Part shown: positions 2,453-64,000 of the stretch, in pieces
Layout: the number at the start of each line of letters is the position of its first letter
How positions within the stretch are numbered: the first letter of the stretch is position 1
DNA from: Halichondria panicea
Taxonomy: Eukaryota; Porifera; Demospongiae; Suberitida; Halichondriidae
Direction of reading: 5' to 3'
Assembly (NCBI RefSeq): GCF_963675165.1
Contig: NC_087377.1
Coordinates: 15,682,198-15,746,197, forward strand
DNA length: 64,000 bases
Program-made: the position numbers and the translations under genes
Notes under the pieces: model-generated
Told to the model about the DNA's origin: nothing
The model's input: the letters and a program-made list of their open reading frames with translations, nothing else
Databases searched by the model: none

Positions 2453-5400
2453 TTATTTTATAGAGAAGAAATCCACGGTTTGAGTAATAACATTAGTATG
2501 TGAATTTGTCTGTACTCCGGCTACAATGACCTCTCCACTAGGAAGTACTGAGCATGTGCAGCAATATCGTGCAGTAGGCAGGTCTCCCACTTTCACCCAC
2601 CTCCTGGTGTCAGGCTGGTAGAGGTGGATCAATGAACTTAGGTTGGCTCTGTCGTCCGCTCCACCAACGGCTAATAGTGACTTCCCAATACTGAGAGGAG
2701 CTGACCACACGAGTGGTACTTCCTGTAAGGTCTGCCAGAGAGTGGATGTGTCCTGGTGGGAAGGGGCTTTTGCAATTAGTTCATCGAGGTCGACGTGATG
2801 CACTGTTGTGGTTGCACTCCCATTGTGATCGTACCCTCCCATTAGGTAGAGGGTGTTTCCTATGAGAGTTGATTTCAGTTCTGATCGTGGGTTAGGTAGT
2901 GACTGAGCAATGTACCATCTTCTTGATGCCACATCCAACACCTCCACAGAGGAGAGGGCATGTCCTTCATCATCACGCCCACCAGCTACAATGATGTGGT
3001 TGTTGAAGGAGACAGCTGTTGAGGAAGAACGAGCAATGTTCATAGGTGGGTACGGGTGAATCCATTCCCCTGACTCAAACACTGCAAGCTCATCGGTGCG
3101 TTTCTTGTTTTTTGGATCAATTCCTCCTCCCACCAGCACTAGTCGATTAGCGAGTGATGTCATAGCGAACCAGTAGGCAATGTACTCTGGTAGTTCGGTC
3201 CATTGATCTTGCTCGAGCTTCATCACTGTACAGCTATTACGATCATCGCCTGCATCACCTCCACCAACATACACCGTGTCACCGATAACAACACTCTGTA
3301 CCGAGTAGCCCATCTTGATTGGCATGTCTTTTCCTTTTCTCCATTCCAGAGTGAGTGGAGGTCTCAACTCTCTGGGAGGGGGACCCTGAATAATGAATGA
3401 GTGTAATTAGGATAGTGTCTACTAACAAGCAAGTGTTACTTGTAGCATTAATTGCATGCACACTAAATCACTTTCTCTAATTAGCTTAAGAGGCCAAGCC
3501 CACCAGTCTAATAGAATGTACAGTACGATTATAAGAGATCAAAGCTTCTACTATAGCTCTGCAATAATAATTATAATGGTGCATTTTGTCTCACCTGTCT
3601 CTGCTGTTGAATGATGGCGTCTCTCCTGACCAGCTCAGCATATTTGTGCTCAGTCTGTTCCCTGTGTGGCTGTACAGGGGAACGTTGGTGGAAATCTTTG
3701 AATTAAAACACAGACGTGAATATCATTAGTGGAAATTCTACAACAGAACGAGAACCGCTAAAGGAAGTACATAATTATAGGCACACTCAAACGGATGTGT
3801 AGTTACGGCTTAACACATGAGACAGCATCCATGCATGTTAAGGTACAATACTATTGTTGCTGTGGGAATCTCATTCACACTACATGTACGCACCATCTTG
3901 ACTTGTTCAGTGTCCTTTGACTCCTTCTTTGTTGCCTCCACTGGGTCCGAGCTTGTTGTTAGGTAAGTATCTAAAATCGATACCAACATTAATAGACGGA
4001 TATGATTTTTTCGTTAGGGTTACAGTTAGCTGAAACGTAAAACACATAATATACTTATCATTGACTCACAGACGTCCCTGGCAGATGGTCTCCTCCTCAT
4101 GTCTTCTTGCAAACAACTGTCGATAAGCTTCCTCAACCTGTGTGTGTGAGGTATCTGGGCAACATGGAATGATCGATCTTCCACAGATTTGATCGTCTTC
4201 AGCTTGCAAACAATCTGCATCATAATCGCCCCAAGAGAGAACACATCCAAGCTATTATCGTAAATATCCTTGTCCAATCGAATAGCCTCGAGAGGTAGAT
4301 ACCCCATACGGTGACCAATGGCTGTGAGGGTGTGGCTAAGCTTGGAGGGATCGTATAGCCGTGACATGCCAAAGTCAGAAATCTTTGCAACAGGCACTGG
4401 TCGTGTAAGCTTCAGCAAAACGTTATCGCCACAGAGGTCACGGTGGATAATCTGCTTGCTGTGAATGTAGGCCAGACCACAAGCCATGTCTTTGGAGAGG
4501 CTTATTTCACATTCGCTAGTGAGGAACTCTTTATCAAGGCCAGAGTAATAGGATCTCAGATTGCAATCCATCAGCTCAACAACGAGGATTGTACCACCTG
4601 ATTTGGGGTGCTTGGCAGTCGACAAATATTGTACAACGTTTGGGTGCTGGAACGACTTGAGAAAATCACACTCACGATCAAATGCTTTGCTGGCTTCTTC
4701 TTTTTTTCCGGTTGGGAAACCTGTCTGCATTTCTACAACCTCATAAATTAGAAGTTTGACTGCACAAATCCCTTCCCTGTAGCTGCCTTTGAAGACTACT
4801 CCAAATGCACCTTTACCGAGTGGCGCCTCTAGGAAAACAGTCAAATTGTCGTTGATCTTCTGGTGATTTTGGTCAACTGTATATAGAACATTGTGTGCAT
4901 GTGTTTGTGAATACTATATTATCAGCTAACTAGCTAAACATCATGTATTAGATATGCATTCCTGTGCGTTGCAAGCTGCGCTGTCCTATATAATGCCTCA
5001 GTCTTCCTATGTTTTGCTTTGCTAATGGAGTTGATGGAGCACAAAAGGGGAGGCCCCTGTCAGCCCCCCTCTGCCTACGCCACTGATGATAATACTGATT
5101 ATTTATAATTTCTGATGCATAACCTTATTTTAGTCATTCGTATATCTAGTGTTCTAGAAGTAGTTTTGGTTTTATATCGCCTTTTTATTCTGATTATTAT
5201 CATGCAGAGTTGCTCACCTGTGCTTCCACATGTTAATGTGTGGCTTCCGGTCAAAGTTTTTCGGGGCGGCGCTTGCTTCCCAAAAAGGGTAAATTTTGCA
5301 ACTCTTACCTTTAGATTCCTGGGCAGCCTTGACGACAACATTTCGTTTCCTGACAGTGGTGGTGATCTCTGGTTTCGAGTAAGGTTTCGCCTCTTGTGTT

Positions 5401-6520
5401 GTGGGGGTTGCCCTGGTACTGGTATCACCCTGAGGGGGAGAAACTGTCACGTGGTGTATAAATGGAATGCTATTGAATTATTCACAATACACTGTAGATA
5501 AACACTGATACAATGAATGTTGGTCAAGTGGTGTCCGACCTCCTCTGAGCTATATCTAGTTGGTTCATGTGTTCCACTGAGACACCAGCACTGCGGGTGC
5601 TTTCATTTTAACTCCATGCAACCTCTGACAGGAAACTATACCGGCCGTCTCATTTGGAGTGGAATTACAGATCTTTTCTGACTCTTTAGCTCTAACGCTT
5701 TTGGTGCAACGCTATTACCGATAATAACTTGAATAGTGCGAACAGACGAAATATTCTGAGAGGCCTTCATAACTCGAGAAAGAAGCTGCAAATCCACGAA
5801 TCAAAATCTAAGAGAACGGCTATATAGAAGCTGTTGCATTGCACAGTTGAGTATAGTTACAGCTGGAATACACACACACACACACACACACACACAGTCA
5901 GCTTTACTGTATTCCTACGGCTCAATTAAGGCATAATTATGGTTAATATAATTAGCAAAGCAAAGCTAAGTAACGTGTTGATAGCAGAGGAGGTACGACA
6001 GTGGGCGCGATGCGGCTCAGCCTTTGATTGGACACTAATTATCCGCCTATATACGCGGTGTGTTATTACTGAGTGTAATCAGAGACTAATTGCTTGAGCT
6101 GCACCATGCATGCCTGTCGGACCTCCTCTGTGTTGATATATTCTGAGTAAGCATAGCATAAGATGAGAGGCTCCTATGATCTCATTATAGAATACTGGTT
6201 TTTCTAGAGCCCATGCATAATGCTTGGGCATATTAATATGCAATAATTATGGCTCGAGAGAGAAACTAGTCTTAAGAACAAAAGAGGATCAAACAATGTA
6301 TGGTCACCTGTTTTTCGGCCTTTCCTTCGTTTATCTTTTTGCCAAACCTCGCCTTGGTACCACCTCCAGACATTTTTGACTGATCATCGAAAGAAATTAG
6401 AGGGGGCTGTTCTTGCTTACCCCGTATTGCCAGGCACGCCCGTAGGATAATTACAGCTAGTGCTGTGACTATGAATATCACAAACAGTGGGGTATAATCT
6501 AGAAACTGGGTGAGATCCAT
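2453..6520 (-). CDS. Membrane-anchored kinase-coil-Kelch protein (chimeric first unit), 741 aa
   Basis: Predicted exons, in transcription order: 6308-6520, 5309-5429, 4070-4876, 3894-3970, 3595-3669 and 2453-3385, with GT-AG borders. They total 2226 nt and make one open frame. Exon 1 encodes a short N-terminus, a hydrophobic segment (about residues 11-32) and a basic, polar tail. Exon 2 encodes a Thr/Lys-rich linker. Exon 3 is a protein kinase with GKGAFG loop, CAVK lysine, HRDLCGDN catalytic loop and DFGM. Two short exons give a linker and a coiled coil (the AELVRRDAIIQQQ motif). The last exon is a six-blade Kelch propeller. The usual Death-domain exon is absent and its place is taken by the membrane exon, joined in the same phase (1). 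Predicted: a single-pass membrane protein with kinase and Kelch on one side. The exon 1-2 joins are inferred from splice sites only. Confidence 0.72.
5770..5935. repeat. Dispersed repeat with CA tract, second copy at about 53.9-54.1 kb
   Basis: This intronic stretch of the membrane-kinase gene (GAGAAAGAAGCT, then AATCAAAATC, AAGAGAACG, AGAAGCTGTT, then (CA)n followed by CAGTCAGCTTTAC) recurs at about 53936-54100 within an insertion in the USF-like copy at 51.4 kb. No coding potential is seen. Confidence 0.6.
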
Positions 6521-8257: not shown

Positions 8258-8294
<37 letters not shown>

Positions 8295-13234: not shown

Positions 13235-16045
13235 TTAATCGCTTATACAAAAGAAATCAACTGTTTGAACAAAATTACCAACTGGTTTTGTCTGTCCTCC
13301 GGCTACAATGATCTCTCCACTAGGAAGTACTGAGCATGTGCAGTGGTATCGTGCAGTAGGCAGGTCTCCCACTTTCACCCACCTCCTGGCTGTGTCAGGC
13401 TGGTAGAGGTGGATCGATGAACTTGGGTTGGCTCTGTCGTCTCGTCCACCAACGGCTAATAGTGACCTCCCAATACTGAGAGGAGCTGACCAGAAGAGTG
13501 GAACTTCCTGTAAGGTCTGCCAGAGAGTGGGTGTGTCAAGGTTGGAAAGGGCCTTTGCAATGAGTTCATTGAGGTCGACGTGGTGCACTGTCTTGGTTAC
13601 AGTGTGATCGTACCCTCCCATTAGGTAGAGGATGTTTCCTATGAGAGTAGATTTCAGTACTGATCGTGGGTTAGGTAGTGACTGAGCAATGTACCATCTT
13701 CTTGATGCCACGTCCAACACCTCCACAGAAGAGGTACGTCCTTTATCACCACGCCCACCAGCTACAATAATGTGGTTGTTGAAGGAGACAGCTGTTGAGG
13801 AATCACGAGCAATGTTCATTGGTGGGTACGGGTGAGTCCATCTCCCTGATTCAAACACTGCAAGCTGATTGGTGCGTTTGTTGTTTCTTGAATCAATTCC
13901 TCCCACTAGCACTAGTCGATTAGCGAGTGATGTCATAGCGAAGTACCTGGCAGTGTACTCTGGTAGTTTGGTCCATTGATCTTGCTCGAGCTTCATCACT
14001 GTACACCTGTCACGATCATTGTCTGCATCACCTCCACCAACATACACCGTGTCACCGATAACAACACTCTGTACCGTGGAACCCATCTTGATTGGCATGT
14101 CTTTTCCTCTTCTCCATTTCAGAGTGAGTGGAGGTCTCAACTCTCTGGGAGGGGGACCCTGAATAATGAATGAGTGTAATTAGGATAGTGTCTACTAACA
14201 AGCGAGTGTTACTTGCAGCAATAATTGCATGCACACTAAATCACTTTCTCTAATTAGCTTAAGAGGCCACGCCCACCAGTCTAATAGAATGTACAGTACG
14301 ATTATAAGAGATCAAAGCTTCTACTATAGCTCTGCAATGATATAATGGTGCATTTTGTCTCACCTGTCTCTGCTGTTGAATGATGGCGTCTCTCCTGACC
14401 AGCTCAGCATCTTTGTGCTCCCTGTGAGCCTGTACAGGGGAACGTTAGTGGAAATCTTTGGATTAAACACAGACGTGAATATCATTAGTGGAAAACTACA
14501 ACAGAACGAGAACAAACAACAATTTTTGCTAAAGGAAGTACATAATTATAGGCACACTCAAACGGATGTGTAGTTACGGCTTAACACATGAGACAGCATC
14601 CATGCATGTGAAGGTACAATACTATTGTTGCTGTGGGAATCTCATTATCACACTACATGTACGCACCTTCTTGACTGGTTGAGTGTCCTTTGACTCCCTC
14701 TTTGTTGCCTCCACTGAACCAGAACCTCTCGTCAAGTAAGCATCTAGAAAATTGATACCAACATTAATAAAGACAAATGTGATTTTTTTTGTTAGGGTTA
14801 TAGTTATAGGGTTAGCGGAATTGTAAAACACATAATTATAATTAACTCACAGATGTCCCTGGCAGACGGTCTCCTCCTCATGTCTTCTTGCAAACAACTG
14901 TCGATAAGCTTCCTCAACCTGTGTGTGTGAGGGATCTGGGCAACATGGAATGATCGATCCTTGGCTGATTTGATCGTCTCCAGCTTGCAAACAATCTGTA
15001 CCATAATCACCCCATAGGAAAACACATCCAGGCTGCTATCGTACTTCTCCTCTTCCAATCGAATAGCCTCGAGAGGTAGATACCCCATACGGTGACCAAT
15101 GGCTGTGAGGGTGTGGCTAAGCTTGGAGGGATCGTATAGCCGTGACATGCCAAAGTCGGAAATCTTTGCAACAGGCACTGGTCGTGTTAGCTTCAGCAAG
15201 ACGTTATCGCCACAGAGGTCACGGTGGATAATCTGCTTGCTGTGAATGTAGGCCAGACCACAAGCCATGTCTTTGGAAAGGCTAATTTCACATTCGCTAG
15301 TGAGGGACTCTTCATCAAGGCTAGAAAAATAGGATCTCAGACTGCAATCCATCAGCTCAACAACGAGGATTGTACTACCTGATTTGGGGTGCTTGGCAGT
15401 CGACAAAAACTGAACAACGTTTGGGTGCTGGAATGACTTAAGAAAATCACTTTCACGATCAATTGCATCGCTAGCTTCTTCGTCTTTGCCGACTGGAATA
15501 CTTGCCTGCATCTCCATAGCATCGTGAAGCAGCACTTTGACTGCACATATCTCGCCCCTGTAGCTGCCTTTGAAGACGGCTCCAAATGCACCTTTACCGA
15601 GAGGTTCGTCTAGGAAAACAGTCAAATCATCGTTGATCAACTGGTGATCTAAAAAATATTGTGTGCATGAGGTTGAAAGATAACGTATTAACATGTATAA
15701 TCATGTATTAATGTGCCATTGGTACTTACCCTGTAATTTTATTCTTTTAGGATTGCTTGCACTAGGATGATCTTTCTCGATGGTCTTGGCTATGTGAACG
15801 TGGCCCACAGTAGGACTTGACAAAGCTTTGACAACATCTTCCCAGCTTCTCTTACCACAGTTCAGCCATTCTTTCAAACCCTCCCTATAGCAGTCATCAG
15901 GATCATCTCGCCATTTCGTACCAATGCTGTCGATTGTCTCGGAGGGTATTTTAAGAACCAGCAAGAAGTTTCGCCACTTGATTCGAGCATCAAACGTAGC
16001 TATGTATAGATCTCCTAGATCTGCTATTGTGAGATAGTCAGACAT
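13235..16045 (-). CDS. Death-kinase-coil-Kelch protein, 726 aa
   Basis: Exons in transcription order: 15730-16045, 14851-15648, 14667-14743, 14364-14429 and 13235-14158. They total 2181 nt and form one open frame. Residues about 1-95 are a Death domain (MSDYLTIADLGDLY to AKTIEKDH, with the helix motif KRSWEDVVKALS). Residues about 120-370 are a kinase with GKGAFG, CAVKVL, HRDLCGDN and DFGM, so the catalytic residues are kept. HRDL is followed by C rather than K and resembles tyrosine-kinase-like kinases. Short linker and coiled-coil exons follow, then a six-blade Kelch propeller to the C-terminus. No signal peptide or membrane segment is present, so a cytoplasmic location is predicted. A splice acceptor 5 nt before the ATG suggests a 5' non-coding exon. 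It is divergent from USF-like copy B and converges with gene X of unit 1. Confidence 0.82.
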
Positions 16046-19127: not shown

Positions 19128-22100
19128 TTAATCGCTTATACAAAAGAAATCAACTGTTTTAACACAATTACCTATTACTAGTACAAATAGTTTTGTCTGT
19201 CCTCCGGATACAATGACCTCTCCACTAGGAAGTACTGAGCATGTGCAGTTGTATCGTGCAGTAGGCAGGTATCCCACTTTCACCCACCTCCTGGTGTCAG
19301 GCTGGTAGAGGTGGATCGATGAACTTGGGTTGCCTCTGTCGTCCCGTCCACCAACGGCTAATAGTGACCTCCCAATACTGAGAGGAGCTGACCACATGAG
19401 TGGTACTTCCTGTAAGGTCTGCCAGAGAGTGGGTGTGTCCAGGTTGGAAAGGGCCTTTGCAATGAGTTCATTGAGGTCGACGTGGTGCACTGTCTTGGTT
19501 GCCCTAGTGTCATCGAACTCTCCCATTAGGTAGAGGGTGTTTCCTATGAGAGTTGATTTCAGTGATGATCGTGGGTTAGGTAGTGACTGAGCAATGTACC
19601 ATCTTCTTGATGCCACGTCCAACACCTCCACAGAGGAGAGGGTACGTTCTTTATCATCATGCCCACCAGCTACAATGATGTAGTTGTTGAAGGAGACAGC
19701 TGTTGAGGAATGGTGAGCAATGTTCATTGGTGGGTACGGGTGAGTCCATTCCCCTGATTCAAACACTGCAAGCTGATTGATGCGTTTTTTGTTTCTTGGA
19801 TCCTGTCCTCCCACCAGCACTAGTCGATTAGCGAGTGATGTCATAGCGAACCACTGAGCAGTGTACTCTGGTAGTTTGGTCCATTGATCTTGCTCGAGCT
19901 TCATCACTGTACACATGCCACGATCATTGTATGCAAACCCTCCACCAACATACACCGTGTCACCGATAACAACACTCTGTACCGAGTAGCCCATCTTGAT
20001 TGGCATATCTTTTCCTCTTCTCCATTTCAGAGTGAGTGGAGGTCTCAACTCTCTGGGAGGGGGACCCTGAATAATGAATGAGTGTAATTAGGATAGTGTC
20101 TACTAACAAGCGAGTGTTACTTGTAGCAATAATTGCATGCACACTAAATCACTTTCTCTAATTAGCTTAAGAGGCCACGCCCACCAGTCTAATAGAATGT
20201 ACAGTACGATTATAAGAGATCAAAGCTTCTACTATAGCTCTGCAATAATATAATGGTGCATTTTGTCTCACCAGTCTCTGCTGTTGAATGATGGCGTCTC
20301 TCCTGACCAGCTCAGCATCTCTGTTGGTGGATATCTAAAACACAGACATGAATATCATTAGTGGAAATTCTACAACAAAACGAGACAATTTCCGCTAAAG
20401 GAAGTACATAATTATAGGCACACTCAAACGGATGTGTATTTAGCAGCTTAGCTTGATTTATACAATAGCATCAATTGTTGAGGTATAATACTATTGTTGG
20501 AATCTCATCGACACACTTAGCTACATGTACGCAAACAAATATCATTATTGTAGTATAATACTAGCGTATAAGAGTGTGTGCATTTGGTGACTACTATAAT
20601 ACCTGTAAGAGAGCGGCCCTCTCAACTAGAGCAGCCTCTCTCTGGGAAATGAGATCAGCGATCCTTGACTCTTGTTCACTGAGTTGTCTGTCCTTGTCAG
20701 CAATCACACCATCTTTGGTGGCAGCATTAGCACGGACACTATTCAATATCTGTATAAAGTGAAAAAAAGATTATCAACATGCTAGCTCGTTGAACAAAAT
20801 AGCTTATAATGAACAAAATAAACTGGTTCTGCTGACCTGTTGCTGTCTAGCAAGCTGAGTATCTTTGTCCGCTATTTCCTCATCTTTTTGAACAAGTAGC
20901 CCATCTTTTTGTACCAGAAGTCCGTCCTTTTCATCTAGTTGATCGTCTTTTTGTGCCAGTAGTGCAACGCTCTGTTCGAGTTGGTTGTCTTTTTGCACTA
21001 GAAGTACATCTTTCTCAGTAAGTTGCTCATCTTTCCTCTCCAGTATCCTGTCCTTCTGGACCACCTCTCTCTGAGAACAGAGTACAGCATGCAGTGTCAG
21101 ACCCTTGCACCCACTAGCTCACTGGACTGGACTCACCTGTAGAGCCTCTATCCTCTTCTCCTTTGCCCTGAGGGTCCTGGCAGTCTTCACTCGCCCAATG
21201 TCCAGCTGGAGCAGTCCTCCGTCCATCTCCCTCCCCACCTCCTCCAGAGACGAGAGGAGCTCAGCGGTGGTCGGTCTTCTCTCTGGGGTGTTGGCCAGAC
21301 ACTCCCTCACCAGACCAAACAGAGGGTGCTCACGTCCACCCGCCAGACTCCTCTCAAGGAGAGCCGTGTAGGGACCTCGACGCTCAAACTCTGAGCGAGC
21401 CAGGAGGTGGTCTGGGTTGTTGGGGTCGCTGTACGTGGGGGCAAGGAGATCTCCTGGAAACACCTAGTCCAATGACACGAGTGGAAGAACATGTGAATAC
21501 TGACTGTCATGATTGTTTTTATGTATGTCTGTATGTATGGAGAAAACGAGTGCACGTATTATTATTCACAATCATACATACAAAATGCATTTGCTGAAGG
21601 TCAACAATATTAAAGGGGGATCTCCCCAACACATACAACCACAATACTTATAAGGTAATTCACTGCATGAATGGTCACCAGGAATCTAACCTATGAATAT
21701 CATTAACTACACACATACTTGTGTGAGTGCAAATAATTGCAGCACTCCGAAAGAGAAGACGTCCAGACTGGGTCCGTACACACTGTGGCCTCTGTCAGAG
21801 AGGGCCTCGGGCGGCATGTACACCAGTGTCCCAGGAAACCTCGTCAGAGTCCTGGCCAGTCGACCAGGCTCCAGATTCACGATACGAGAGTTACCAAAGT
21901 CGGTGATCTTGGCTCTCAGAGATGCCGTCAGTAGGACGTTCCTGGAAGTGAGGTCACGATGGACCACGGACTCACGATGCAGGTGGAGCAGCCCTCGAGC
22001 CACACAGACCAGAATGTACTGGGTGACAGAGAGGGGGATGTTGGGCGTGGACTCCAGGAGATCGTCCAGACTTGAGTCCAGTCTCTCCATGACCAGGAGG

Positions 22101-22481
22101 GGCAGTCGAGAGCCAGTCACGAAACACAGCCCAATGAACTGGGTGATGTTGGGGTGACGGATGCGAGCCATGAGTCGACACTCTCGGCGGTAGTTCCCAG
22201 CTAGGTTGGCCACTCCACCACGCTCGTCCGTCTCCAGGAGAACCTCGTGGATCTTCTTGGCTGCATACACCTCACCATTGATCATCACCTGTGCATGGAG
22301 GCAGTCACACTTGAATAGCTAGCAGATACACGAGAGACAGTGCACAGAAACAGAGCATGCAGTGACTGACCTCTTGAACAGAGCCATAGGAGCCAGTTCC
22401 TAGAACTCTCTCCTCTCCAAAGTGCTCCACATTCTCCAGCACAAACTCCCTCAAGTCAGCATCATCTCGCAAAGAAAACAT
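19128..22481 (-). CDS. Tyrosine-kinase-like kinase with long coiled coil and Kelch propeller, 796 aa
   Basis: Exons in transcription order: 22371-22481, 21719-22288, 21137-21463, 20837-21070, 20603-20749, 20272-20334 and 19128-20066. They total 2391 nt with all internal introns in phase 0. The kinase spans about residues 22-300: GTGSYGSV loop, AAKKI lysine, RREC helix-C glutamate, HRDLTSRN, DFGNSR and MPPEAL. A coiled coil of about 150 residues follows, with a repeated KDxxL heptad-like pattern (LLVQKDGLLVQKD), then the short AELVRRDAIIQQQ coil and a six-blade Kelch propeller. There is no Death domain or membrane segment. The kinase half is unrelated in detail to that of the neighbouring units, whereas the coil and Kelch exons are clear paralogues. 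It is nearly identical to 56655-59987 outside the Kelch exon. Confidence 0.85.
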
Positions 22482-22956: not shown

Positions 22957-22963
22957 TGGCTAA

Positions 22964-30658: not shown

Positions 30659-33600
30659 TCAGTTTCGGTCCGTATTGTCTACAATGAATCTACAAATGTC
30701 TGTAGCAGTGTCTCCTCTTCTCAGTCCTATGGCAATTTCCACCAAGGCCCTGAAGGTAGCTCTGGAAGGATTTACTCTTTGCCACGCTCTCAATGCATGA
30801 GCCACTCCAGCTTGATTGCCATAACGACTTGTAACATCAGTTACATCACCGAGGTCGGCTGGGGTGAGGTTGAGTCGATCCAGCAGGTTAGGAGTTGTGG
30901 ATTGATTCACTGCATGAAGAAATAAAGAAATCAATAAAATGACAATTTACAATTTTCGTGATAGTCTTATTAAAAATGACACACAGGCGAATAAAAAAAA
31001 TGCACACTGAAAATAGTTACCTACAATTTTTGTGGTAGTTTATATCAATCACTAAAAATGGTGAATAAAAAAAAAATGCACAAACAGTTACCTGTGATGC
31101 TATCAGCCAAATTGATGAGATCCACAGTGGGCCTTTTGAGAGCGTCTGATAGGAGACTCCATGTTACATGTTGTGTACTTAGGAGCTTGGCCAACATTTC
31201 ACGCAAGCACGATACATTATTTCCATGATGCTCGCTATCGATATATTGGTGAGAACAGGATGAGTTAGACCTAAAGCCAATCCCAGATTGAACCAGTGAG
31301 GGCTGGCACTTTCATGTAGTTTCTCGTAAACATGTTGTAGATCATTAATATTCAAAGCCTGTACAAAAACAACAATCAACAAGGTTTCATTTGGTGGGGG
31401 TACTCCCTCGGAAATACATTCTAGAAGAAACTCAATGGGAATACAATTGAGGGGTTTCTGGTGAATAATATTCTTAACAGGGCAGATATAGTAATGAATT
31501 CCTGGGGGTCGAACCCTCTAGATATATACATGTCATCAACACCCTAATATCATGCACGTGCACCATTAGCCTCAATCCCAGGCCGCTCTCCCTCGACTGT
31601 TTGCGCATGCGCCACATAATCCCCAGAAATTGGGGACTCCGGATATTATCGTATAATGCTCAGTAAAACAATGACGTCACAACAAACAAAAGTGGATTGA
31701 AGAAAGTGGATAGAAGTGTGATTGTGAAGGCTTCTAGCTCCTGTGATAGCATTCTGATAGCTATACCCTTAGCCTGCTATGTTAACAAAGAACTCACAGC
31801 CTGCAACAGTGTGGATGACAATCGTCTGAATGGAGGGAAGGCTGACAATAGCCTATATGGACAGGCCACGCCCATCTGACATTAACCTTGGTGAAAGTCT
31901 ACATGTAGACTCTATCAGAAGAAATAGCTGCTGTAACCAAACGTGTACAGCTCTGTCTCTAGCTAGCTAGCTATATAGCTCTGTGTATGTAGTATTCTTT
32001 GTGTGTATATGTTATTCAGGATATTTTTCGGGTAATATTTCAGAAACATTACGGGGAAATTATCCAATTATTTTGCGCATGCGCAAACAGTCAGTAGCAG
32101 GCCTCCTTTTTGAGGCCTTGTGAAGGAGGCTAGTGCACCATTTGCTCCCCTTGCCAAAATGTCAGGAGGATAAGTAGATACAAGATTTAGAGTACTGCCT
32201 ACCTTGTGCACGTTCAGCAGGTGAGGAAATTTCTCCGCGATTAGAATGATGTCACTCTCAGGGATTTCTTGATCTAGTTGTTGGTCCCTCACTCCAGTCT
32301 TCTTACACACATCTTCCATTACTGTAACAGAGGACAATTCACCTCAAGAAAAATATTGGGCCAAAAAGCAAAAGTATTCTTTATAAGCGACATAAAAAAC
32401 CAACCATTGGAGATATTATAAACTGTTAAGTCTGAGTTGGTGCTACAATTACATCAACTACACAGTATCAACTACACAGGCACTGAATTATACACGAGGA
32501 TTAACATGATCAGGCACAGGACAAATTAATGATCATAACCTGTCGATCAAACGACACTTTCTTACTGGTATGTTGATGTTGAATGATGGCGTCTCTCCTG
32601 ACCAGCTCAGCATCTTTGTGCTCAATCCGTTCCCTGTATGCCTGTACAGGGGAACGTTGGTGGAAATCTTTGAATTAAAACACTGACGTTAATATCGAAA
32701 TTCTACAACAGGACGAGAACTGAAGAAACAATTTTTGCTAAAGGAAGTACATAATTATAGGCACACTCAAACGGATTTGTAGTTACGGCTTAACACATGA
32801 GACAGCATCCATGCATGTTAAGGTACAATACTATTGTTGCTGTGGGAATCTCATTCACACACTACATGTACGCACCTTCTTGACTGGTTGAGTGTCCTTT
32901 GACTCCCTCTTTGTTGCCTCCACTGTGTCCGAGCCACTTGTCAGGTCAACATCTGCAGTCAAGTTATTATCTGGTTGAGTGTCCTCCCGAGGTTGTATCT
33001 GTAGAGACTTCACTAGATGATCAATTTCTCTGGGTTGAACTTCAAACTGTTCTTGTTGAGGAGTGATCACTTCTTCTAGTCCACAAACTTGCTTAGCTTG
33101 AAGCCGATCGATAGATGCTTGTGAATGAGTGTCTTTCTCAGATACTTGATGTTTTACTTGAGTGTCCTTGGACTCCCTCTTTGTTGCCTCCACTGTGTCA
33201 GAGTGGCTTGTCAGTGAAGCATCTAAAGTAAAAGTTAAATCTTCAATAAGGAACTTTTTCTGAACAAAATTTCAAAATCGTACAAGATACAATTGACTCA
33301 CAAATTATTTGCGGTATTATTATAATGTAAAACACATTAATTATTTAATTAACTCACAGATGTCCCTGGCAGATGGTCTCCTCCTCATGTCTTCTTGCAA
33401 GCAACTGTCGATAAGCTTCCTCAACCTGTGTGTGTGAGGGATCTGGGCCACATGGTCTAATCGATCTTCCACAGATTTAACCGTCTTCAGCTTGCGAATA
33501 ATCTGTACCATAATCACCCCAAGGGAAAAAACATCGACGCTATTATCGTAATTCTCCTTGTCCAATCAAATAGCCTCGAGAGGTAGATACCCCATACGGT

Positions 33601-34173
33601 GACCAATGGCTGTGAGGGTGTGGCTAAGCTTGGAGGAATCATATAGCCGTGACATGCCAAAGTCGGATATCTTTGCAACAGGCACTGGTCGTGTTAGCTT
33701 CAGCAAGACGTTATCACCACAGAGGTCACGATGGATAATCTTCTTGCTGTGAATGTAGGCCAGACCACAAGCCATGTCTTTGGAGAGGCTAATTTCACAT
33801 TCGCTAGTGAGAGACTCTTCATCAAGGCTGGAGAAATAGGATCTCAGATTGCAATCCATCAGCTCAACAACGAGGATTGTACCACCTGATTTGGGGTGCT
33901 TGGCAGTCGACAAAAACCGAACAACGTTTGGGTGCTGTAACGACTTGAGAAAATCACTCTCACGATCAATTGCATTGCTAGCTTCTTCGTTTTTGCCGAC
34001 TGGAATACTTGCCTGCATCTCCATAGCATCGTGAAGCAGCACTTTGACTGCACAAATCTCGCCCTTGTAGCTGCCTTTGAAGACTGCTCCAAATGCACCT
34101 TTACCGAGACGCTCGTCTAGGAAAACAGTCAAATCGTCATTGATCTTCTGGTGATCTTGGTCGACTGTAGAAC

Positions 34174-34206
<33 letters not shown>

Positions 34207-39044: not shown

Positions 39045-41863
39045 TTAATCGCTTGTACAAAAGAAATCAACTGTTTGAAGATAATTACTAAATTGTTTTG
39101 TCTGTCCTCCGGCTACAATGACCTCTCCACTAGGAAGTACTGAGCATGTGCAGTAGTATCGTGCAGTAGGCATGTCTCCCACTTTCACCCACCTCCTGGT
39201 GTCAGGCTGGTAGAGGTGGATCGATGAACTTGGGTGGTATCTGTCGTCGTGTCCACCAACGGCTAATAGTGACCTCCCAATACTGAGAGAAGCTGAACGC
39301 ACGAGTGGTACTTCCTGTAAAGTCTGCCAGAGAGTGGGTGTGTCCAGGTTAGAAAGGGTCTTTGCAATGAGTTCATTGAGGTCGACGTGGTGCACTGTCT
39401 TGGTTGAGCTAGTGTGATCCCACCCTCCCATTAGGTAGAGGGTGTTTCCTATGAGAGTCGATTTCAGTACTGATCGTGGGTTGGGTAGTGACTGAGCAAT
39501 GTACCATCTTCTTGATGCTACGTCCAACACCTCCACAGAGGAGGAGGAACGTTTTTTATCATCATACCCACCAGCTACAATGATGTGGTTGTTGAAAGAG
39601 ACAGCTGTTGAGGAAGAACGAGCAATGTTCATTGGTGGGTACGGGTGAGTCCATTTCCCTGACTCAAAAACTGCAAATTGATTGGTGAGTTTGTTGTTTC
39701 TTAGATCACGTCCTCCCACCAGCACTAGTCTATTAGCGAGTGATGTCATAGCGACGTACTTGACAGTGTACAATGGTAGTTTGGTCCATTGATCTTGCTC
39801 GAGCTTCATCACTGTACACCTGTCACGATCATTGACTGCCTCACCTCCACCAACATACACCGTGTCACCGATGACAACACTCTGTACCGAGGTACCCATC
39901 TTGATTGGCATGTCTTTTCCTCTTCTCCATTTCAGAGTGAGTGGAGGTCTCAACTCTCTGGGAGGGGGACCCTGAATAATGAATGAGTGTAATTAGGATA
40001 GTGTCTACTAACAAGCGAGTGTTTCTTGTAGCAATAATTGCATGCACACTAAATCACTTTCTCTAATTAGCTTAAGAGGCCACGCCCACCAGTCTAATAG
40101 AATGTACAGTACGATTATAAGAGATCAAAGCTTCTACTATAGCTCTGCAATAATATAATGGTGCATTTTGTCTCACCTGTCTCTGCTGTTGAATGATGGC
40201 GTCTCTCCTGACCAGCTCAGCATCTTTGTGCTCAACCTGTTCCCTGTGTGCCTGTACAGGGGAACGTCGGTGGAAATCAAACACAGACGTGAATAACATT
40301 AGAGAAAATTCTACAACAGAACGAGACAATATTCACTAAAGGAAGTACATAATTATAGGCACACTCAAACGGATGTGTAGTTACGGCTTAACACATGAGA
40401 CAGCATCCATGCATGTTAAGGTACACTGCAATACTATTGTTGCTGTGGGAATCTCATTCACACACTACATGTACGCACCTTCTTGACTGGTTGAGTGTCC
40501 TTTGACTCCCTCTTTGTTGCCTCCACTGTGTCTAAGCCCCTCGTCAGGTCCGCATCTAAAGTAAAAGAAAATCGATACCAACATTAATAGACGGATATGA
40601 TTTTTTCGTTAGGGTTACGGTTAGCTGAAACGTAAAACACATACTTATCATTGACTCACAGATGTCCCTGGCAGATGGTCTCTTCCTCATGTCTTCTTGC
40701 AAACAACTGTCGATAAGCTTCCTCAACCTGTGTGTGTGAGGGATCTGGGCAACATGGAATGATCGATCTTCCACAGATTTGATCGTCTTCAGCTTGCAAA
40801 CAATCTGCATCATAATCGCCCCAAGAGAGAACACATCCAAGCTATTATCGTAATTATCCTTGTCCAATCGAATAGCCTCGATAGGTAGATACCCCATACG
40901 GTGACCAATGGCTGTGAGGGTGTGGCTAAGCTTGGAGGGATCGTATAGCCGTGACATGCCAAAGTCGGATATCTTTGCGACAGGCACTGGTCGTGTAAGC
41001 TTCAGCAAGACGTTATCCCCACAGAGGTCACGATGGATAATCTGCTTGCTGTGAATGTAGGCCAGACCACAAGCCATGTCTTTGGAGAGGCTAATTTCAC
41101 ATTCGCTAGTGAGGGACTCTTCATCAAGGCCAGAGAAATAGGATCTCAGATTGCAATCCATCAGCTCAACAACGAGGATTGTACCACCTGATTTGGGATG
41201 CTTAGCAGTCGCCAAAAACTGAACAACGTTTGGGTGCTGGAACGACTTGAGAAAATCACTCTCACGATCAATTGCATCGCTAGCTTCTTCGTTTTTACCG
41301 ACTGGAATACTTGCCTGCATCTCCATAGCAATCTGATGTAGAAGTTTGATAGCACAAGGATTGCCCTTGAAGCTGCCTTTGAAGACTGCTCCAAAAGCAC
41401 CACTACCGAGTGGTTCGTCTAGGAAAACAGTTAGATCATCGTTGATCAACTGGTGATTTTCATCAACTAAAGAATAGTGTGTGCATGAGGTTGAAAGATA
41501 ACGTATTAACATGTATAATCATGTATTAATGTGCCATTGGTACTTACCCTGTAATTTTATTCTTTTAGGATTGCTTGCACTAGGATGATCTTTCTCGATG
41601 GTCTGGGCTATGTGAACTTCACCCACGATGGGACTTGACAAAGCCTCCACCATCTCTTTCCAGCTCTTCCCTCCTTCATTAAGCCATTTACTCAAACCCT
41701 CACGATAGCAGTCATCAGGATTGTTGCTCCATTCTTTCCCGATGCTGTGGATTGTAGCCTGGGGTACGTCAAGAATAAGCAAGATGTTTCGCCATTTGAT
41801 TCGAGCATCAAACGTGACGAGGTACAATTTCTTCAGATCTGCTATTGTGAGATAGTCAGACAT
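39045..41863 (-). CDS. Death-kinase-coil-Kelch protein, 733 aa
   Basis: Exons in transcription order: 41548-41863, 40660-41466, 40479-40555, 40177-40251 and 39045-39971. They total 2202 nt in one open frame. The Death domain (residues about 1-95) differs from its paralogues in several helices (ADLKKLYLVTFDARIKW, GGKSWKEMVEALS). The kinase loop is GSGAFG with CAIKLL, HRDLCGDN and DFGM intact, and LPIEAI replaces LPLEAI. The Kelch propeller has its own set of loop residues (for example KMGTS, GGGEAVND, TVKYVAM). The Death-domain exon end (SNPKRIKLQ) is shared with the 13-16 kb gene, whereas its kinase C-lobe is closest to the 2.4-6.5 kb gene, suggesting a recombinant origin. The ATG may be preceded by a further in-frame ATG at 41951-41953. 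Confidence 0.82.
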
Positions 41864-45315: not shown

Positions 45316-45318
45316 GCA

Positions 45319-48144: not shown

Positions 48145-50528
48145 CTAATTACTTATACACAAGAAATCAACAGTTCGAATATAATCAGTAATTATAAACA
48201 GTTTTGCACTTGTCAGTCCTCCGGCTACAATGACCTCTCCACTAGGAAGTACTGAGCATGTGCAGCTGTATCGTGCAGTAGGCAGGTCTCCCACTTTCAC
48301 CCACCTCCTGGTGTCAGGCTGGTAGAGGTGGATCGATGAACTTGAGTTGTCTCTGTCGTCCTCTCCACCAACGGCTAATAGTGACCTCTCAATACTGAGA
48401 GGAGCTGAGAACACGAGTGGTACTTCCTGTAAGGTCTGCCAGGGAGTGGGTGTGTCCAGGTTGGAAAGGGCCTTTGCGATGAGTTCATTGAGGTGGACGT
48501 GATGCACTGTCTTGGTTATCTCAGTGTGATCCCACCCTCCCATTAGGTAGAGGGTGTTTCCTATGAGAGTCGATTTCAGTTCTGATCGTGGGTTAGGTAG
48601 TGACTGAGCAATGTACCATCTTCTTAATGCCACGTCCAACACCTCCACAGAGGAGATACGTCCTTTATCATCACGCCCACCAGCTACAATGATGTGGTTG
48701 TTGAAGGAGAAAGCTGTTGAGGAATCACGAGCAATGTTCATTGGTGGGTACGGGTGAGTCCATTCCCCTGACTCAAATACTGCAAGCTGATTGGTGGGTT
48801 TGTTGTTTCTTGGATCACGTCCTCCCACCAGCACTAGTCGATTAGCGAGTGATGTCATAGCAAAGTACTTGGCAGTGTACTCTGGTAGTTTGGTCCATTG
48901 ATCTTGCTCGAGCTTCATCACTGTACACCTGTCACGACCATTGTCTGCATAGCCTCCACCAACATACACCGTGTCACCGATAACAACACTCTGTACCGAG
49001 GTACCCATCTTGATTGGCATGTCTTTTCCTCTTTTCCATTTCAGAGTGAGTGGAGGTCTCAACTCTCTGGGAGGGGGACCCTGAATAATGAATGAGTGTA
49101 ATTAGGATAGTGTCTACTAACAAGCGAGTGTTACTTGTAGCAATAATTGCATGCACACTAAATCACTTTCTCTAATTAGCTTAAGAGGCCACGCCCACCA
49201 GTCTAATAGAATGTACAGTACGATTATAAGAGATCAAAGCTTCTACTATAGCTCTGCAATGATATAATGGTGCGTTTTGTCTCACCTTTCTCTGCTGTTG
49301 AATGATGGCGTCTCTCCTGACCAGCTCAGCATCTTTGTGCTTATTCTGTTCCCTGTGTGCCTGTACAGGGGAACGTTGGTGAAAAAATTCTACAACAGAA
49401 GGAGACATTCTTCACTAAAGGAAGTACATAATTATAGGCACACTCAAACGGATGTGTAGTTACGGCTTAACACATGAGACAGCATCCATGCATGTTAAGG
49501 TACAATACTATTGTTACTGTGGGAATCTCATTATCACACTACATGTACGCACTTTCTTGACCGGTTGAGTGTCCTTTGACTCCTTCTTTGTTGCCTCCAC
49601 TGGGTCCGAGCTTGTTGTTAGGTAAGTATCTAAAATCGATACCAACATTAATAGAAGGATATGATTTTTTCGTTAGGGTTACAGTTAGCTAAAACGTAAA
49701 ACACATAATATACTTATCATTGACTCACAGATGTCCCTGGCAGATGGTCTCCTCCTCATGTCTTCTTGCAAACAACTGTCGATAAGCTTCCTCAACCTGT
49801 GTGTGTGAGGTATCTGGGCAACTCCACAGATTTGATCGTCTTCAGCTTGCAAACAATCTGCATCATAATCGCCCCAAGAGAGAACACATCCAAGCTATTA
49901 TCGTAAATATCCTTGTCCAATCGAATAGCCTCGAGAGGTAGATACCCCATACGGTGACCAACGGCCGTGAGGGTGTGGCTAAGCTTGGAGGGATCGTATA
50001 GCCGTGACATGCCAAAGTCGGAATTCTTTGCAACAGGCACTGGTCGTGTAAGCTTCAGCAAAACGTTATCGCCACAGAGGTCACGGTGGATAATCTTCTT
50101 GCTGTGAATATAGGCCAGACCACAAGCCATGTCTTTGGACAGGCTAATTTCACATTCGCTACTGATAGACTCTTCACCAAGGCCGGAGAAATAGGATCTC
50201 AGATTGCAATCCATCAGCTCAACAACGAGGATTGTACCACCTGATTTGGGGTGCTTAGTAGTCGACAAATACAGAACAACGTTTGGGTGCTGGAGTGACT
50301 GGAGATACTCACACTCACGATCAAATGCTTTGCTAGCTTCTTCACTTTTACTGGCTGGGAAACCTGTCTGCATTTCTACAGCCTCGTAAATCAGAAGTTT
50401 GACCGCACAAATCTCGCCCCTGTAGCTGCCTTTGAAGACTGCTCCAAATGCACCTTTACCGAGAGGTTCGTCTAAGAAAACAGTCAAATCATCGTTGATC
50501 TTCTGGCGGTTTTGGTCAACTGTAGAAC

Positions 50529-50599
<71 letters not shown>

Positions 50600-51006
50600 A
50601 TGAGAGGGACCCGGGTGAATATTATAGTAGCTAGCTAATAAACTAAGCATCATGTATGAGATATGCATTCCTGTGCTGAACTAGTGCTTACCCTCTGACT
50701 TCACATCAGTAGGATTGCTTGCATCAGTAGACTGTAGATGATCTTTCTCGATGGTCCTTGCTATGTCACTGTGGCCCACAATAGGACTTGACAAAGCTTT
50801 GACAACATCTTCCCAGCTTCTCTCACTACCTTTCAGCCATTCTTTCAAACCCTCACGATAGCAGTCATCAGGATCATCTCTCCATTTTGTACCAATGCTG
50901 TCGATGGTATTTTAAGAACTAGCAAGAAGTTTCGCCACTTGATTCGAGCATCAAACGTAGCTATGTATAGATCTCCTAGATCTGCTATTGTGAGATAGTC
51001 AGACAT
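48145..51006 (-). pseudogene. Death-kinase-coil-Kelch gene with two frame-breaking deletions
   Basis: Exons in transcription order: 50692-51006, 49729-50519, 49553-49629, 49286-49360 and 48145-49080. The Death exon is 10 nt shorter than the 34.3-kb paralogue (ATCCGAGGGT missing between direct GGTAT repeats near 50908), shifting frame after LLVLKIPS. The kinase exon is 791 nt instead of 807: 16 nt are missing near 49820 (GGGCAAC joined to TCCACAG), giving LPRYLTHTG and a stop. The residue before the DFG motif is also changed (AKNSDFG for AKISDFG). The Kelch exon itself is open and complete (312 codons including stop) with its own loop residues. Confidence 0.78.
50531..50597. repeat. Long (GT)n microsatellite
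   Basis: About 33 uninterrupted GT units lie in the intron between the Death and kinase exons of the 48-51 kb gene. A shorter (GT)n tract sits at the matching place in the 34-kb paralogue (34174-34205). Confidence 0.9.
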
Positions 51007-56654: not shown

Positions 56655-59600
56655 CTAATTAGCACTTATAGAAAAGAAATCAACAGTTGGAATATAATCA
56701 ATTTCTGTCTCTCCTCCGGCTACAATGACCTCTCCACTAGGAAGTACTGAGCATGTGCAGCAATATCGTGCAGTAGGCAGGTCTCCCACTTTCACCCACC
56801 TCCTGGTGTCAGGGTGGTAGAGGTGGATCGATGAACTTGGGTTGAATCCGTTCGCTCCACCAACGGCTAATAGTGACCTCCCAATACTGAGAGGAGCTGA
56901 TCGCACGAGTGGTACTTCCTGTAAGGTTTGCCAGAGAGTGGGTGTGTCCAGGTTGGAAAGGGCTTTTGCAATGAGTTCATCGAGGTCGGCGTGATGCACT
57001 GTCTTGGTTGGACTACTCACAGTGTGATCCCACCATCCCATTAGGTAGAGGGTGTTTCCTATGAGAGTTGATTTCAGATCTGATCGTGGGTTAGGTAGTG
57101 ACTGAGCAATGTACCATCTTCTTGATGCCACGTCCAACACCTCCACAGAGGAGAGGGAACATAATTTATCATCACGCCCACCAGCTACAATGATGTAGTT
57201 GTTGAAGGAGACAGCTGTTGAGGAATCATGAGCAATGTTCATTGGTGGGTACGGGTGAGTCCATTCTCCTGCTTCAAACATTGCAAGCTGATTGGTGGGT
57301 TTGTTGTTTTTTGGATCACGTCCTCCCACCAGCACTAGTCGATTAGCGAGTGATGTCATAGCGAACCACATGGCAGTGTACTCTGGTAGTTTGGTCCATT
57401 GATCTTGCTCGAGCTTCATCACTGTACACCCGTCACGATCATTGTCTGCACTACCTCCACCAACATACACCGTGTCACCGATAACAACACTCTGTACCGA
57501 GCGACCCATCTTGATTGGCATGTCTTTTCCTCTTCTCCATTTCAGAGTGAGTGGAGGTCTCAACTCTCTGGGAGGGGGACCCTGAATAATGAATGAGTGT
57601 AATTAGGATAGTGTCTACTAACAAGCGAGTGTTACTTGTAGCAATAATTGCATGCACACTAAATCACTTTCTCTAATTAGCTTAAGAGGCCACGCCCACC
57701 AGTCTAATAGAATGTACAGTACGATTATAAGAGATCAATGCTTCTACTATAGCTCTGCAATAATATAATGGTGCATTTTGTCTCACCTGTCTCTGCTGTT
57801 GAATGATGGCGTCTCTCCTGACCAGCTCAGCATCTTTGTTGGTGGAAATCTAAAACACAGACGTGAATATCATTAGTGGAAATTCTACAACAAAACGAGA
57901 CAATTTCTGCTAAAGGAAGTACATAATTATAGGCACACTCAAACGGATGTGTATTTAGCAGCTTAACATGATTTATACAATAGCATCAATTGTTGAGGTA
58001 TACTACTATTGTTGGAATCTCATCGACACACTTAGCTACATGTACGCAAACAAATATCATTATTGTAGTATAATACTAGCGTATAAGAGTGTGTGCATTT
58101 GGTGACTACTATAATACCTGTAAGAGAGTGGCCCTCTCAACTAGAGCAGCCTCTCTCTGGGAAATGAGATCAGTGATCGTTGACTCTTGTTCACTGAGTT
58201 GTCTGTCCTTGTCAGCAATCACACGATCTTTGGTGGCACGGACACTATACAATATCTGTATAAAAAAAGGTTATCAACATGCTAGCTCGTTGAACAAAAT
58301 AGCTTATAATGAACAAAATAAACTGGTTCTGCTGACCTGTTGCTGTCTAGCAAGCTGAGTATCTTTGTCCGCTACTTCCTCATCTTTTTGAACAAGTAGC
58401 CCATCTTTTTGTACCAGAAGTCCGTCCTTTTCATCTAGTTGATCGTCTTTTTGTGCCAGTAGTGCAACGCTCTGTTCGAGTTGGTTGTCTTTTTGCACTA
58501 GAAGTACATCTTTCTCAGTAAGTTGCTCATCTTTCCTCTCTAGTATCCTGTCCTTCTGGACCACCTCTCTCTGAGAACAGAGTACAGCATGCAGTGTCAG
58601 ACCCTTGCACCCACTAGCTCACTGGACTGGACTCACCTGTAGAGCCTCTATCCTCTTCTCCTTTGCCCTGAGGGTCCTGGCAGTCTTCACTCGTCCAATG
58701 TCCAGCTGGAGCAGTCCTCCGTCCATCTCCCTCCCCACCTCCTCCAGAGACGAGAGGAGCTCAGCGGTGGTCGGTCTTCTCTCTGGGGTGTTGGCCAGAC
58801 ACTCCCTCACCAGACCAAACAGAGGGTGCTCACGTCCACCCGCCAGACACCTCTCAAGGAGAGCCGTGTAGGGACCTCGACGCTCAAACTCTGAGCGAGC
58901 CAGAAGGTGGTCTGGGTTGTTGGGGTCGCTGTACGTGGGGGCAAGGAGATCTTCTGGAAACACCTAGTCCAATGACACGAGTGGAAGAACATGTTAATAC
59001 TGACTGTCATGATTGTTTTTATGTATGTCTGTATGTATGGAGAAAACGAGTGCATGTATATTCACCATCATACATACAAAATGCATTTGCTGAAGGTCAA
59101 CAATATTAAAGGGGGATCTCCCCAACACATACAAACACATACAACCACAATACTTATAAGGTAATTCACTGCATGAATGGTCACCAGGAATCTAACCTAT
59201 GAATATCATTAACTACACACATACTTGTGTGAGTGCAAATAATTGCAGCACTCCGAAAGAGAAGACGTCCAGACTGGGTCCGTACACACTGTGGCCTCTG
59301 TCAGAGAGGGCCTCGGGCGGCATGTACACCAGTGTCCCAGGAAACCTCGTCAGAGTCCTGGCCAGTCGACCAGGCTCCAGATTCACGATACGAGAGTTAC
59401 CAAAGTCGGTGATCTTGGCTCTCAGAGATGCCGTCAGTAGGACGTTCCTGGCAGTGAGGTCACGATGGACCACGGACTCACGATGCAGGTGGAGCAGCCC
59501 TCGAGCCACACAGACCAGAATGTACTGGGTGACAGAGAGGGGGATGTTGGGGGTGGACTCCAGGAGATCGTCCAGACTTGAGTCCAGCCTCTCCATGACC

Positions 59601-59987
59601 AGGAGGGGCAGTCGAGAGCCAGTCACGAAACACAGCCCAATGAATTGGGTGATGTTGGGGTGACGGATGCGAGCCATGAGTCGACACTCTCGGCGGTAGT
59701 TCCCAGCTAGGTTGGCCACTCCACCACGCTCGTCCGTCTCCAGGAGAACCTCGTGGATCTTCTTGGCTGCATACACCTCACCATTGATCATCACCTGTGC
59801 ATGGAGGCAGTCACACTTGAATAGCTAGCAGATACACTAGAGACAGTGCACAGAAACAGAGCATGCAGTGACTGACCTCTTGAACAGAGCCATAGGAGCC
59901 AGTTCCTAGAACTCTCTCCTCTCCAAAGTGCTCCACATTCTCCAGCACAAACTCCCTCAAGTGAGCATCATCTCGCAAAGAAAACAT
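56655..59987 (-). CDS. Tyrosine-kinase-like kinase with long coiled coil and Kelch propeller, 789 aa
   Basis: Exons in transcription order: 59877-59987, 59225-59794, 58637-58963, 58337-58570, 58118-58255, 57787-57849 and 56655-57581. They total 2370 nt in one open frame with phase-0 introns. The architecture matches 19128-22481: kinase (GTGSYGSV, AAKKI, HRDLTARN, DFGNSR, MPPEAL), long KD-rich coiled coil (three residues shorter in the fifth exon), short coil, then Kelch. Over the kinase and first coil exons only about four residues differ from the 19-22 kb copy, whereas the Kelch exon differs at about forty positions, mostly in blade loops. No Death domain, signal peptide or membrane segment is present. 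Confidence 0.85.
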
Positions 59988-63444: not shown

Positions 63445-63639
63445 GACTGTTAAATATTATTTTGTCTGTTTTTGTACTATTTTCTGGCAATGTAATTATG
63501 TATGTACCACTTCATGTCATCATAATAACTATAATTATATGCGATAAAATTCTGTTGCAACTTAATTAGAACATGATAAAAAAATTTATATTGTTAACGC
63601 ACAACATATAAAGAGAAACAAATTTAATTAACAAAATAA

Positions 63640-64000
63640 CTAATTAGCACTTACAGAGAAGAAATCAAGAGTTTGAATAATAGTATACACATCTGTCTGT
63701 CCTCCGGCTACAATTACCTCTCCACTAGGAAGTACTGAGCATGTGCAGCAATATCGTGCAGTAGGCAGGTCTCCCACTTTCACCCATCTCCTGGTGTCAG
63801 GCTGGTAGAGATGGATCGATGAACTTGGGTTGAATCTGTCGTCTCGTCCACCAACAGCTAATAGTGACCTCCCAATACTGAGAGGAGCTGACCAGAAGAG
63901 TGGTACTTCCTGTAAGGTCTGCCAGAGAGTGGGTGTGTCCAGGTTGGAAAGGGCTTTTGCAATGAGTTCATTGAGGTCGACGTGGTGCACTGTCTTGATT
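63640..64000 (-). CDS. Kelch exon of the next unit, cut by the window edge
   Basis: This is the C-terminal part of a seventh Kelch exon (HHVDLNELIAKAL to the stop at 63640), covering roughly the last two to three blades. The loop residues again differ (VPLFWS, AVGGRDDRFN, ARYCCTC, GGQTDVYTII). It is open to the edge. The kinase part lies beyond the window. Confidence 0.85.
   Translation of the reverse strand, partial: IKTVHHVDLNELIAKALSNLDTPTLWQTLQEVPLFWSAPLSIGRSLLAVGGRDDRFNPSSSIHLYQPDTRRWVKVGDLPTARYCCTCSVLPSGEVIVAGGQTDVYTIIQTLDFFSVSAN

Follow-up and report, generated by a model that had tools for sequence, protein, structure and literature searches.

Beta-propellers with a hypervariable surface are known from fungi, where the WD40 propellers of the HNWD NLRs carry a few hypervariable sites that are under diversifying selection, lie on the predicted interaction surface and show concerted evolution (PMC12222747, PMC4986451). 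For Kelch propellers, a substrate surface shaped by the D-A and B-C loops is described in KLHL20 (PMC6720452), and in KEAP1 the residues that hold Nrf2 (S363, R380, N382, N414, R415, R483 and S508) lie in a D-A or B-C loop, with the Nrf2 site completely conserved in vertebrate Keap1 (PMC10146909). Here we analyzed a 64,000-nucleotide stretch of the genome of the sponge Halichondria panicea (contig NC_087377.1, here C1; C1:15682198-15746197), referred to as the window, which carries part of a large array of genes. In its full form, such a gene is predicted to encode a six-bladed Kelch propeller preceded by a Death-like domain, a kinase and a short linker; a second kinase type replaces the first in some copies. 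We consider it probable that these genes form a repertoire of Kelch receptor-kinases, encoded in the germline and shaped by diversifying selection, that serves recognition. The analysis covers this single genome, searched across 131.5 Mb in 39 contigs.

The fungal NLR WD40 propeller (HET-D, HET-E and HET-R) appears to be the closest working parallel that we have seen in print, being likewise a beta-propeller sensor with hypervariable positions on an interaction surface. It differs in that the fold is WD40 there and Kelch here, in that variation lies between tandem repeats of one gene there and between gene copies here, and in that the signaling part here is a Death-like domain with a kinase. 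With KEAP1 and the KLHL proteins, the family shares the six-bladed Kelch propeller, and the D-A and B-C loops that vary here are their substrate-binding loops. In contrast, the Nrf2 site is frozen in vertebrate Keap1, whereas the corresponding face is hypervariable in this family, and the N-terminal half, unlike that of BTB-Kelch (KLHL) proteins, is formed by the Death-like domain and kinase. A BTB domain was not matched in the scanned Death-like and kinase parts, with two small linker exons outside the scan. As a large lineage-specific germline family, the array also resembles expanded invertebrate immune families (NLRs, FREP, SpTransformer and SRCR). A search of mostly open-access literature, with preprints outside its scope, turned up no published Kelch kinase family comparable to this one among the entries listed. 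One sponge study counts Kelch-motif and Death-domain genes among the responders to microbial cues (PMC6208332), and a second includes both Kelch propellers and kinase domains in its niche-dependent families (PMC11000336); the available parts of these two reports describe no such family.

Positive selection on the Kelch propeller

One Kelch exon of the window served as the reference copy:

39045..39992 (-), Kelch propeller exon, open frame from 39992 (Pfam Kelch, AlphaFold, per-site test)

This exon matched PF24681 (E=3.9e-34) and also PF01344, and AlphaFold modeled it as a six-bladed propeller with a predicted local distance difference test score (pLDDT) of 88.7 and a predicted template modeling score (pTM) of 0.87. 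A Foldseek search returned designed Kelch proteins, NS1-BP, KLHL12, KLHL20 and KEAP1 among its matches, and of the 50 matches listed, all but one bear titles of Kelch proteins, designed or natural, the exception being named as an antibody design. For the analysis of variation, 98 exon matches were reduced to 97 loci (one locus being duplicated), out of at least 126 in the genome, and, after removal of three with a stop and five identical copies, to 89 distinct intact exons, aligned over the 313 of 372 columns that were at least half filled.

An initial annotation of the window, made from its sequence, had described residues that vary twice per blade in an otherwise constant propeller. The residues it cited at KMG-x (Y,S,Y,T,T,R), YTA-x (Y,R,Q,K,K,M), NIA-xx (RS,RD,HH,RS,RD,HD), PRS-x (E,V,S,V,E,D), VPL-xx (VW,FW,MW,VR,VF,VR) and ARY-x (C,H,N,Y,S,C) are present in the translations, with flanking words one letter off in two copies (e.g. 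YIA, YTV). It had counted seven Kelch exons, six of which are complete, but the seventh is cut by the window end and is represented by 63649-63996. The shared per-blade register holds across the 89 exons: the 18 named columns, that is two before and one after the GG register of each blade, have a mean entropy of 2.21 bits compared with 0.40 elsewhere, a value reached by none of 20,000 independent rotations of the blade profiles (p = 5e-5). The variable segment following each GG was also borne out and extends about eight residues. The variable residue assigned to the position before the second strand is instead placed by the AlphaFold model before strand A, in the D-A loop. The framework, called almost invariant, is constrained, but a median of 28 of its 284 non-selected residues differ per pair of copies; at the selected sites described below, a median of 20 of 29 differ, and 84 of the 89 copies have distinct faces at these 29 sites.

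Selection was assessed with a face of 60 codons, defined as two before strand A and eight after GG in each blade. In a grid version of a test like fixed effects likelihood (FEL; not run in HyPhy), 29 of the 313 codons were positively selected (beta>alpha at a likelihood-ratio statistic >6.63) and 23 showed the reverse (beta<alpha). This demonstrates site-specific positive selection, and 27 of the 29 codons fall within the 60 face codons (p 4e-20). In the reference exon, examples of selected codons are:

39891-39893 (-), selected codon
39840-39842 (-), selected codon
39756-39758 (-), selected codon
39708-39710 (-), selected codon
39615-39617 (-), selected codon
39564-39566 (-), selected codon
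39468-39470 (-), selected codon
39420-39422 (-), selected codon
39300-39302 (-), selected codon
39249-39251 (-), selected codon
39153-39155 (-), selected codon

A codon model on the framework tree gave an omega of 4.79 for the 60 face codons and 0.63 for the other 253, and a simpler codon model gave 4.33 on the face and 0.52 elsewhere, with a log-likelihood (lnL) for the face of -8743 compared with -8916 when omega was fixed at 1, a cost of 173 lnL units. Since the copies exchange sequence freely and no single tree can therefore be right, tree-free contrasts were weighted as much as omega. Nucleotide diversity (pi) at codon positions 1, 2 and 3 was 0.42, 0.49 and 0.20 in the 37 codons of highest entropy and 0.04, 0.04 and 0.06 in the other 276; overall, synonymous diversity (piS) was 0.082 and nonsynonymous diversity (piN) 0.086, with piN reaching 0.5-0.65 at the hottest codons. 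The rest of the protein evolves differently, as omega on each part's own tree was 0.42 for kinase type 1 (17 distinct copies), 0.43 for the Death-like domain (14 copies) and 0.15 for kinase type 2 (5 copies), with copies containing a stop, shorter pieces and identical copies excluded. Thus, the chassis and framework are under purifying selection and the face is under diversifying selection, on the kinase or Death-kinase chassis that the initial annotation had proposed.

The selected codons are not scattered over the structure. Among the 87 of 89 exons used for the structure alignment (two cross tile ends), 25 of the 29 sites with dN/dS above 1 fall in D-A (7) or B-C (18) loops of the predicted propeller; strand C of the last blade holds three, a C-D loop one, and the A-B loops hold none. 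The D-A and B-C loops thus hold 25 selected sites in 127 positions, compared with 1 in 47 for the A-B and C-D loops (p 0.003). The proposed likeness to the KEAP1 ligand face holds on the published residues, as distinct from a residue-by-residue alignment to KEAP1, and the clustering of 29 selected sites on predicted loops supports the view of a recognition module that is undergoing diversification. Arg, Tyr, Phe, Cys and Trp, which are frequent in binding surfaces, are enriched 1.5 to 3.1 times at the selected sites, and Lys is depleted. In seven copies outside the array (on C6, C28, C12 and C1 near 11 Mb), 25 of the 28 sites with at least four residues lie within the 60 face sites.

A local mutation hotspot was rejected as the source of this variation, as synonymous differences between pairs with the same residue are equal at the 29 selected sites (0.0535) and elsewhere (0.0534). 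Sequence flanking the exon also gives a background: over 160 random pairs from 31 records (two of the same locus, three identical), median identity was 91% in the 600 nucleotides upstream, which are mostly intron with one linker exon, 92.5% in the exon and 80% downstream. The background has thus diverged only modestly, and the faces are near saturation.

It is very improbable that the variable codons are the work of a targeted mutator like that of diversity-generating retroelements. Such a process would fit several hot codons that are near saturation at positions 1 and 2 and nearly fixed at position 3 (at site 34, C in 88 of 89), but the hot bases are not mainly A, hot codons 196, 254 and 305 have a third-position A that never varies, and synonymous variation is not raised. 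Third-position diversity averaged over 36 sites is 0.20, compared with 0.19 expected under plain selection in a model with flat omega and independent lineages from the commonest codon. It is under expectation at 22 of the 36 sites (lower at 34, 53, 196, 252 and 254) and at or over it at 14 (higher ones include 79, 190 and 300). Targeted mutagenesis was rejected on this ground, the signal being strong at single sites but the same mean arising from the selection model.

Shuffling of the face among copies

Linkage was tested in 72 of the 89 copies, after removal of near-duplicates and the seven off-array copies. The r2 between sites was 0.10 for adjacent sites, 0.017-0.018 at 60-100 bases and 0.014-0.016 farther apart, compared with 0.014 by chance, demonstrating a loss of linkage over short distances, and about half of the framework site pairs showed the four-combination pattern. 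The mean difference at selected codons was 0.359-0.361 irrespective of arm, distance or kinase type, the last comparison using 82 of 89 copies with type assigned by position. Clustering by arm, distance or kinase type was therefore rejected at the selected codons; framework means ranged from 0.048 to 0.053. With linkage near chance and a face that lacks structure of this sort, the copies behave as one shuffled pool.

A search for donors of individual segments in pairs of recent near-duplicates gave mixed results. Between copies L086 and L040, all four tested segments match other copies on one or both sides; between the window copy at 48148 and copy L067, four copies match one side, but the changed side has no match; and for L032 and L035 an exact donor was not found among the fetched copies. 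Gene conversion between copies is likely but unproven as the process that these patterns suggest. Some expanded invertebrate immune families combine gene conversion with diversifying selection.

Exons that are identical or nearly so occur across the inverted arms of the array. Three copies at C1:15825377, C1:16893863 and C1:17364525 lie on opposite arms, do not differ in the exon or in the 600 bases flanking it on each side, and are evidently very recent duplications across the array. Collapsed or mixed haplotypes in the assembly would produce false mosaics, and the identity of some exons between inverted arms would fit such an artefact. We hold it to be highly improbable, because the contig is 18.1 Mb with no N in the fetched stretches, the differences concentrate on a single face and stay within in-frame codons, and the copies outside the array vary at these sites too.

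Gene anatomy and genomic setting

The anatomy of the family is legible in the DNA, where the best complete gene model contains the reference exon:

39045..41863 (-), best complete gene model, 733 amino acids, start MSDYL, 5 exons, one open frame of 2202 nucleotides
41863-41548 (-), exon 1, Death-like
41466-40660 (-), exon 2, kinase
40555-40479 and 40251-40177 (-), exons 3 and 4, short linker
39971-39045 (-), exon 5, Kelch and stop

In this model, which was read from DNA only, every intron is GT-AG and the phases match. The linker exons may, at a guess, form a coiled coil, and the second of them was also matched ahead of Kelch exons downstream of type-2 kinases. The parts of the family in the window all lie on the minus strand. 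They are seven Kelch exons, of which six are whole and one is cut, five kinase domains of type 1, one having a stop and another being in two frames, two of type 2, and four Death-like exons, of which one is broken. Besides those of the gene above, the features are:

2453..3406 (-), Kelch propeller exon, matched stretch identical to the other-arm copy at C1:16935 kb
4065..4856 (-), kinase type 1, domain match
13235..14179 (-), Kelch propeller exon (exon matching and Pfam)
14846..15637 (-), kinase type 1, domain match
15722..16045 (-), Death-like exon (exon match, profile)
19128..20087 (-), Kelch propeller exon downstream of a type-2 kinase (exon matching)
21710..22285 (-), kinase type 2, partial domain match within one exon
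33353..34144 (-), kinase type 1 with an in-frame stop, domain match, no Kelch exon matched behind it
34279..34611 (-), Death-like exon, Pfam Death E=0.015, under the cut-off
48145..49101 (-), Kelch propeller exon (exon matching)
49724..50499 (-), kinase type 1, two-frame match, looks broken
50684..51006 (-), Death-like exon, broken into two overlapping pieces with an internal stop (exon match)
56655..57602 (-), Kelch propeller exon downstream of a type-2 kinase (exon matching)
59216..59791 (-), kinase type 2, 99.5% identity to the 21710-22285 copy
63649..64000 (-), Kelch exon truncated by the right window end (translated part 63649-63996), whole at C1:15745846-15746781

The kinase matched Pkinase and PK_Tyr_Ser-Thr in a Pfam scan (E about 2e-35). 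The 17 distinct unbroken type-1 kinases all retain HRD and DFG, and 16 retain the catalytic lysine, so that the type-1 kinase looks catalytically active. The type-2 kinase at 21710..22285 has at least 48 genome matches at 85-100% identity, 47 of those listed being at 91% or more. A death domain followed by a kinase is the N-terminal arrangement of IRAK and Pelle, which the 733-amino-acid frame may share, its Death-like match being weak, and from which the family differs in having its own variable Kelch sensor. Against the Protein Data Bank (PDB), IRAK4 is among the best matches of kinase type 2, behind one EGFR-labeled chain and plant receptor-like kinases, whereas the best 60 of 2316 matches of kinase type 1 name no IRAK and are headed by an EGFR-labeled chain, followed mainly by B-Raf, with LIMK and others. 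A profile from 13 Death-like copies matched 11 PDB sequences at E<=1, all FADD, the best at E 0.0025; other weak Pfam names on these copies were HTH_SB (3 of 13) and MBL_MAP1B (1 of 13), at E 0.1 or so.

Using one Kelch exon as the query (461 candidates), at least 126 matches to the Kelch family were found genome-wide, at least 102 of them in two inverted arms of C1, one on the minus strand at 15.48-16.14 Mb and one on the plus strand at 16.71-17.39 Mb, together spanning about 1.9 Mb. Matches listed outside the arms lie on C6 (16), C28 (3), C12 (1) and C1 near 11 Mb (4). The exon order of the window recurs in the neighboring 200 kb (15.47-15.67 Mb), where 13 of 18 whole Kelch exons are preceded by a Death-like exon and a type-1 kinase (some parts broken) and three by a type-2 kinase, while the remaining two, one of which borders the end of this stretch, are without a matched kinase.

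If the array were redundant and decaying, or under relaxed constraint, broken copies would be left, and such copies exist: the kinase at 33353 has a stop, the Death-like exon at 50684 is split, and three of the 126 listed Kelch matches have an in-frame stop. As a general account of the family, decay is barely credible, since the other 123 of 126 Kelch frames are open, omega on the face is well above 1, and the framework and chassis are under purifying selection. The individual kinase copy at 33353..34144 does look decayed; linker-like exons persist at 32573-33220, beyond this stop-bearing Death-like and kinase copy (33353-34611).

Related sequences were observed elsewhere in the genome. A second big set of Kelch exons, of a different kind and many in tandem, lies at C9:0.04-1.6 Mb (with a few to 4.2 Mb), mostly in open frames of 180-330 amino acids. 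Big kinase arrays at C3:0.87-2.46 Mb and C11:4.4-6.5 Mb have about 45-51% identity to type 2 and open frames of 267 to 1941 amino acids, and a cluster of Death-like exons at C12:5.9-6.14 Mb has about 45-57% identity to the one from the window. Neither NACHT nor NB-ARC was found among the domains in the Pfam scan of the Kelch-kinase gene parts; NACHT has at least 102 matches elsewhere in the genome, many arrayed on C7, C13 and C14, and the animal seems also to carry a large NLR set. The genome contains Wnt genes, which mark it as metazoan, and gave two weak innexin matches (E about 7e-5); a search for ligand-gated channels, run without a positive control, gave no match. Within the array, two alike plus-strand open frames rich in Ser, Gln and Asn (window 11373-11846 and 54611-55183) look like a duplicated fragment of some other gene.

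A possible role in recognition

In the mechanism that we propose, the face formed by the D-A and B-C loops would act as the sensor, its residues diversified by selection and reshuffled in short patches, most likely by gene conversion, with the framework, kinase and Death-like domain maintained by purifying selection. The face would bind foreign or altered-self proteins or peptides, and ligand binding may cluster the receptor and trigger signaling through the kinase and Death-like domain. The role would then be recognition of non-self, and we infer an immune function from this. Several points weigh against this interpretation. The 60-site face was taken from the observation in the initial annotation, the loop test and the off-array copies being more independent of it, and because the copies recombine, tree-based omega and the per-site test are biased. 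The Death-like domain is at E 0.015, under the Pfam cut-off, with Death at E<=1 in 4 of 13 members, and some array copies are broken. From their domains and the MSDYL start, the receptor-kinases are most likely cytoplasmic.

The same receptors might serve allorecognition within the species rather than recognition of microbes, and a large, diverse repertoire could suit that role. Fungal NLR propellers with diversifying hypervariable sites do serve it, according to one report (PMC12222747). We nevertheless regard this as unlikely for a family with more than 100 copies. Allorecognition is usually based on one or few highly polymorphic loci. Quite unlikely, too, is an internal conflict, over transposons, selfish elements or paralogous partners, in which the Kelch face picks the substrates of the kinase rather than outside ligands. 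The Kelch faces of KEAP1 and KLHL20 choose cellular substrates via short peptides, and the type-1 kinases keep their catalytic residues, which would fit this explanation; in our judgement, however, a Death-like domain and diversity on this scale (median 20/29) better suit open-ended external targets.

Recognition of non-self by a germline repertoire remains the reading we favor. Tentatively, and with less confidence, it is possible that the animal has a Kelch immune-receptor face, encoded by well over 100 genes, the complete ones of which would also encode the kinase and Death-like domain, that germline recombination reshapes this face in patches tens of bases long, and that one pool of residues is shared across the 1.9-Mb array and both kinase types. 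If true, this would be a combinatorial recognition repertoire that arises without somatic gene rearrangement, Kelch would be added to the folds, LRR, Ig, WD40 and the like, on which hypervariable recognition is built, and sensing and signaling would be united in one protein through the kinase and Death-like fusion. The near-constant framework and known faces may allow many natural variants to be screened for ligands on one scaffold, and the family would offer a clean natural example in which a face is under selection even as its copies are mixed by exchange of short patches.

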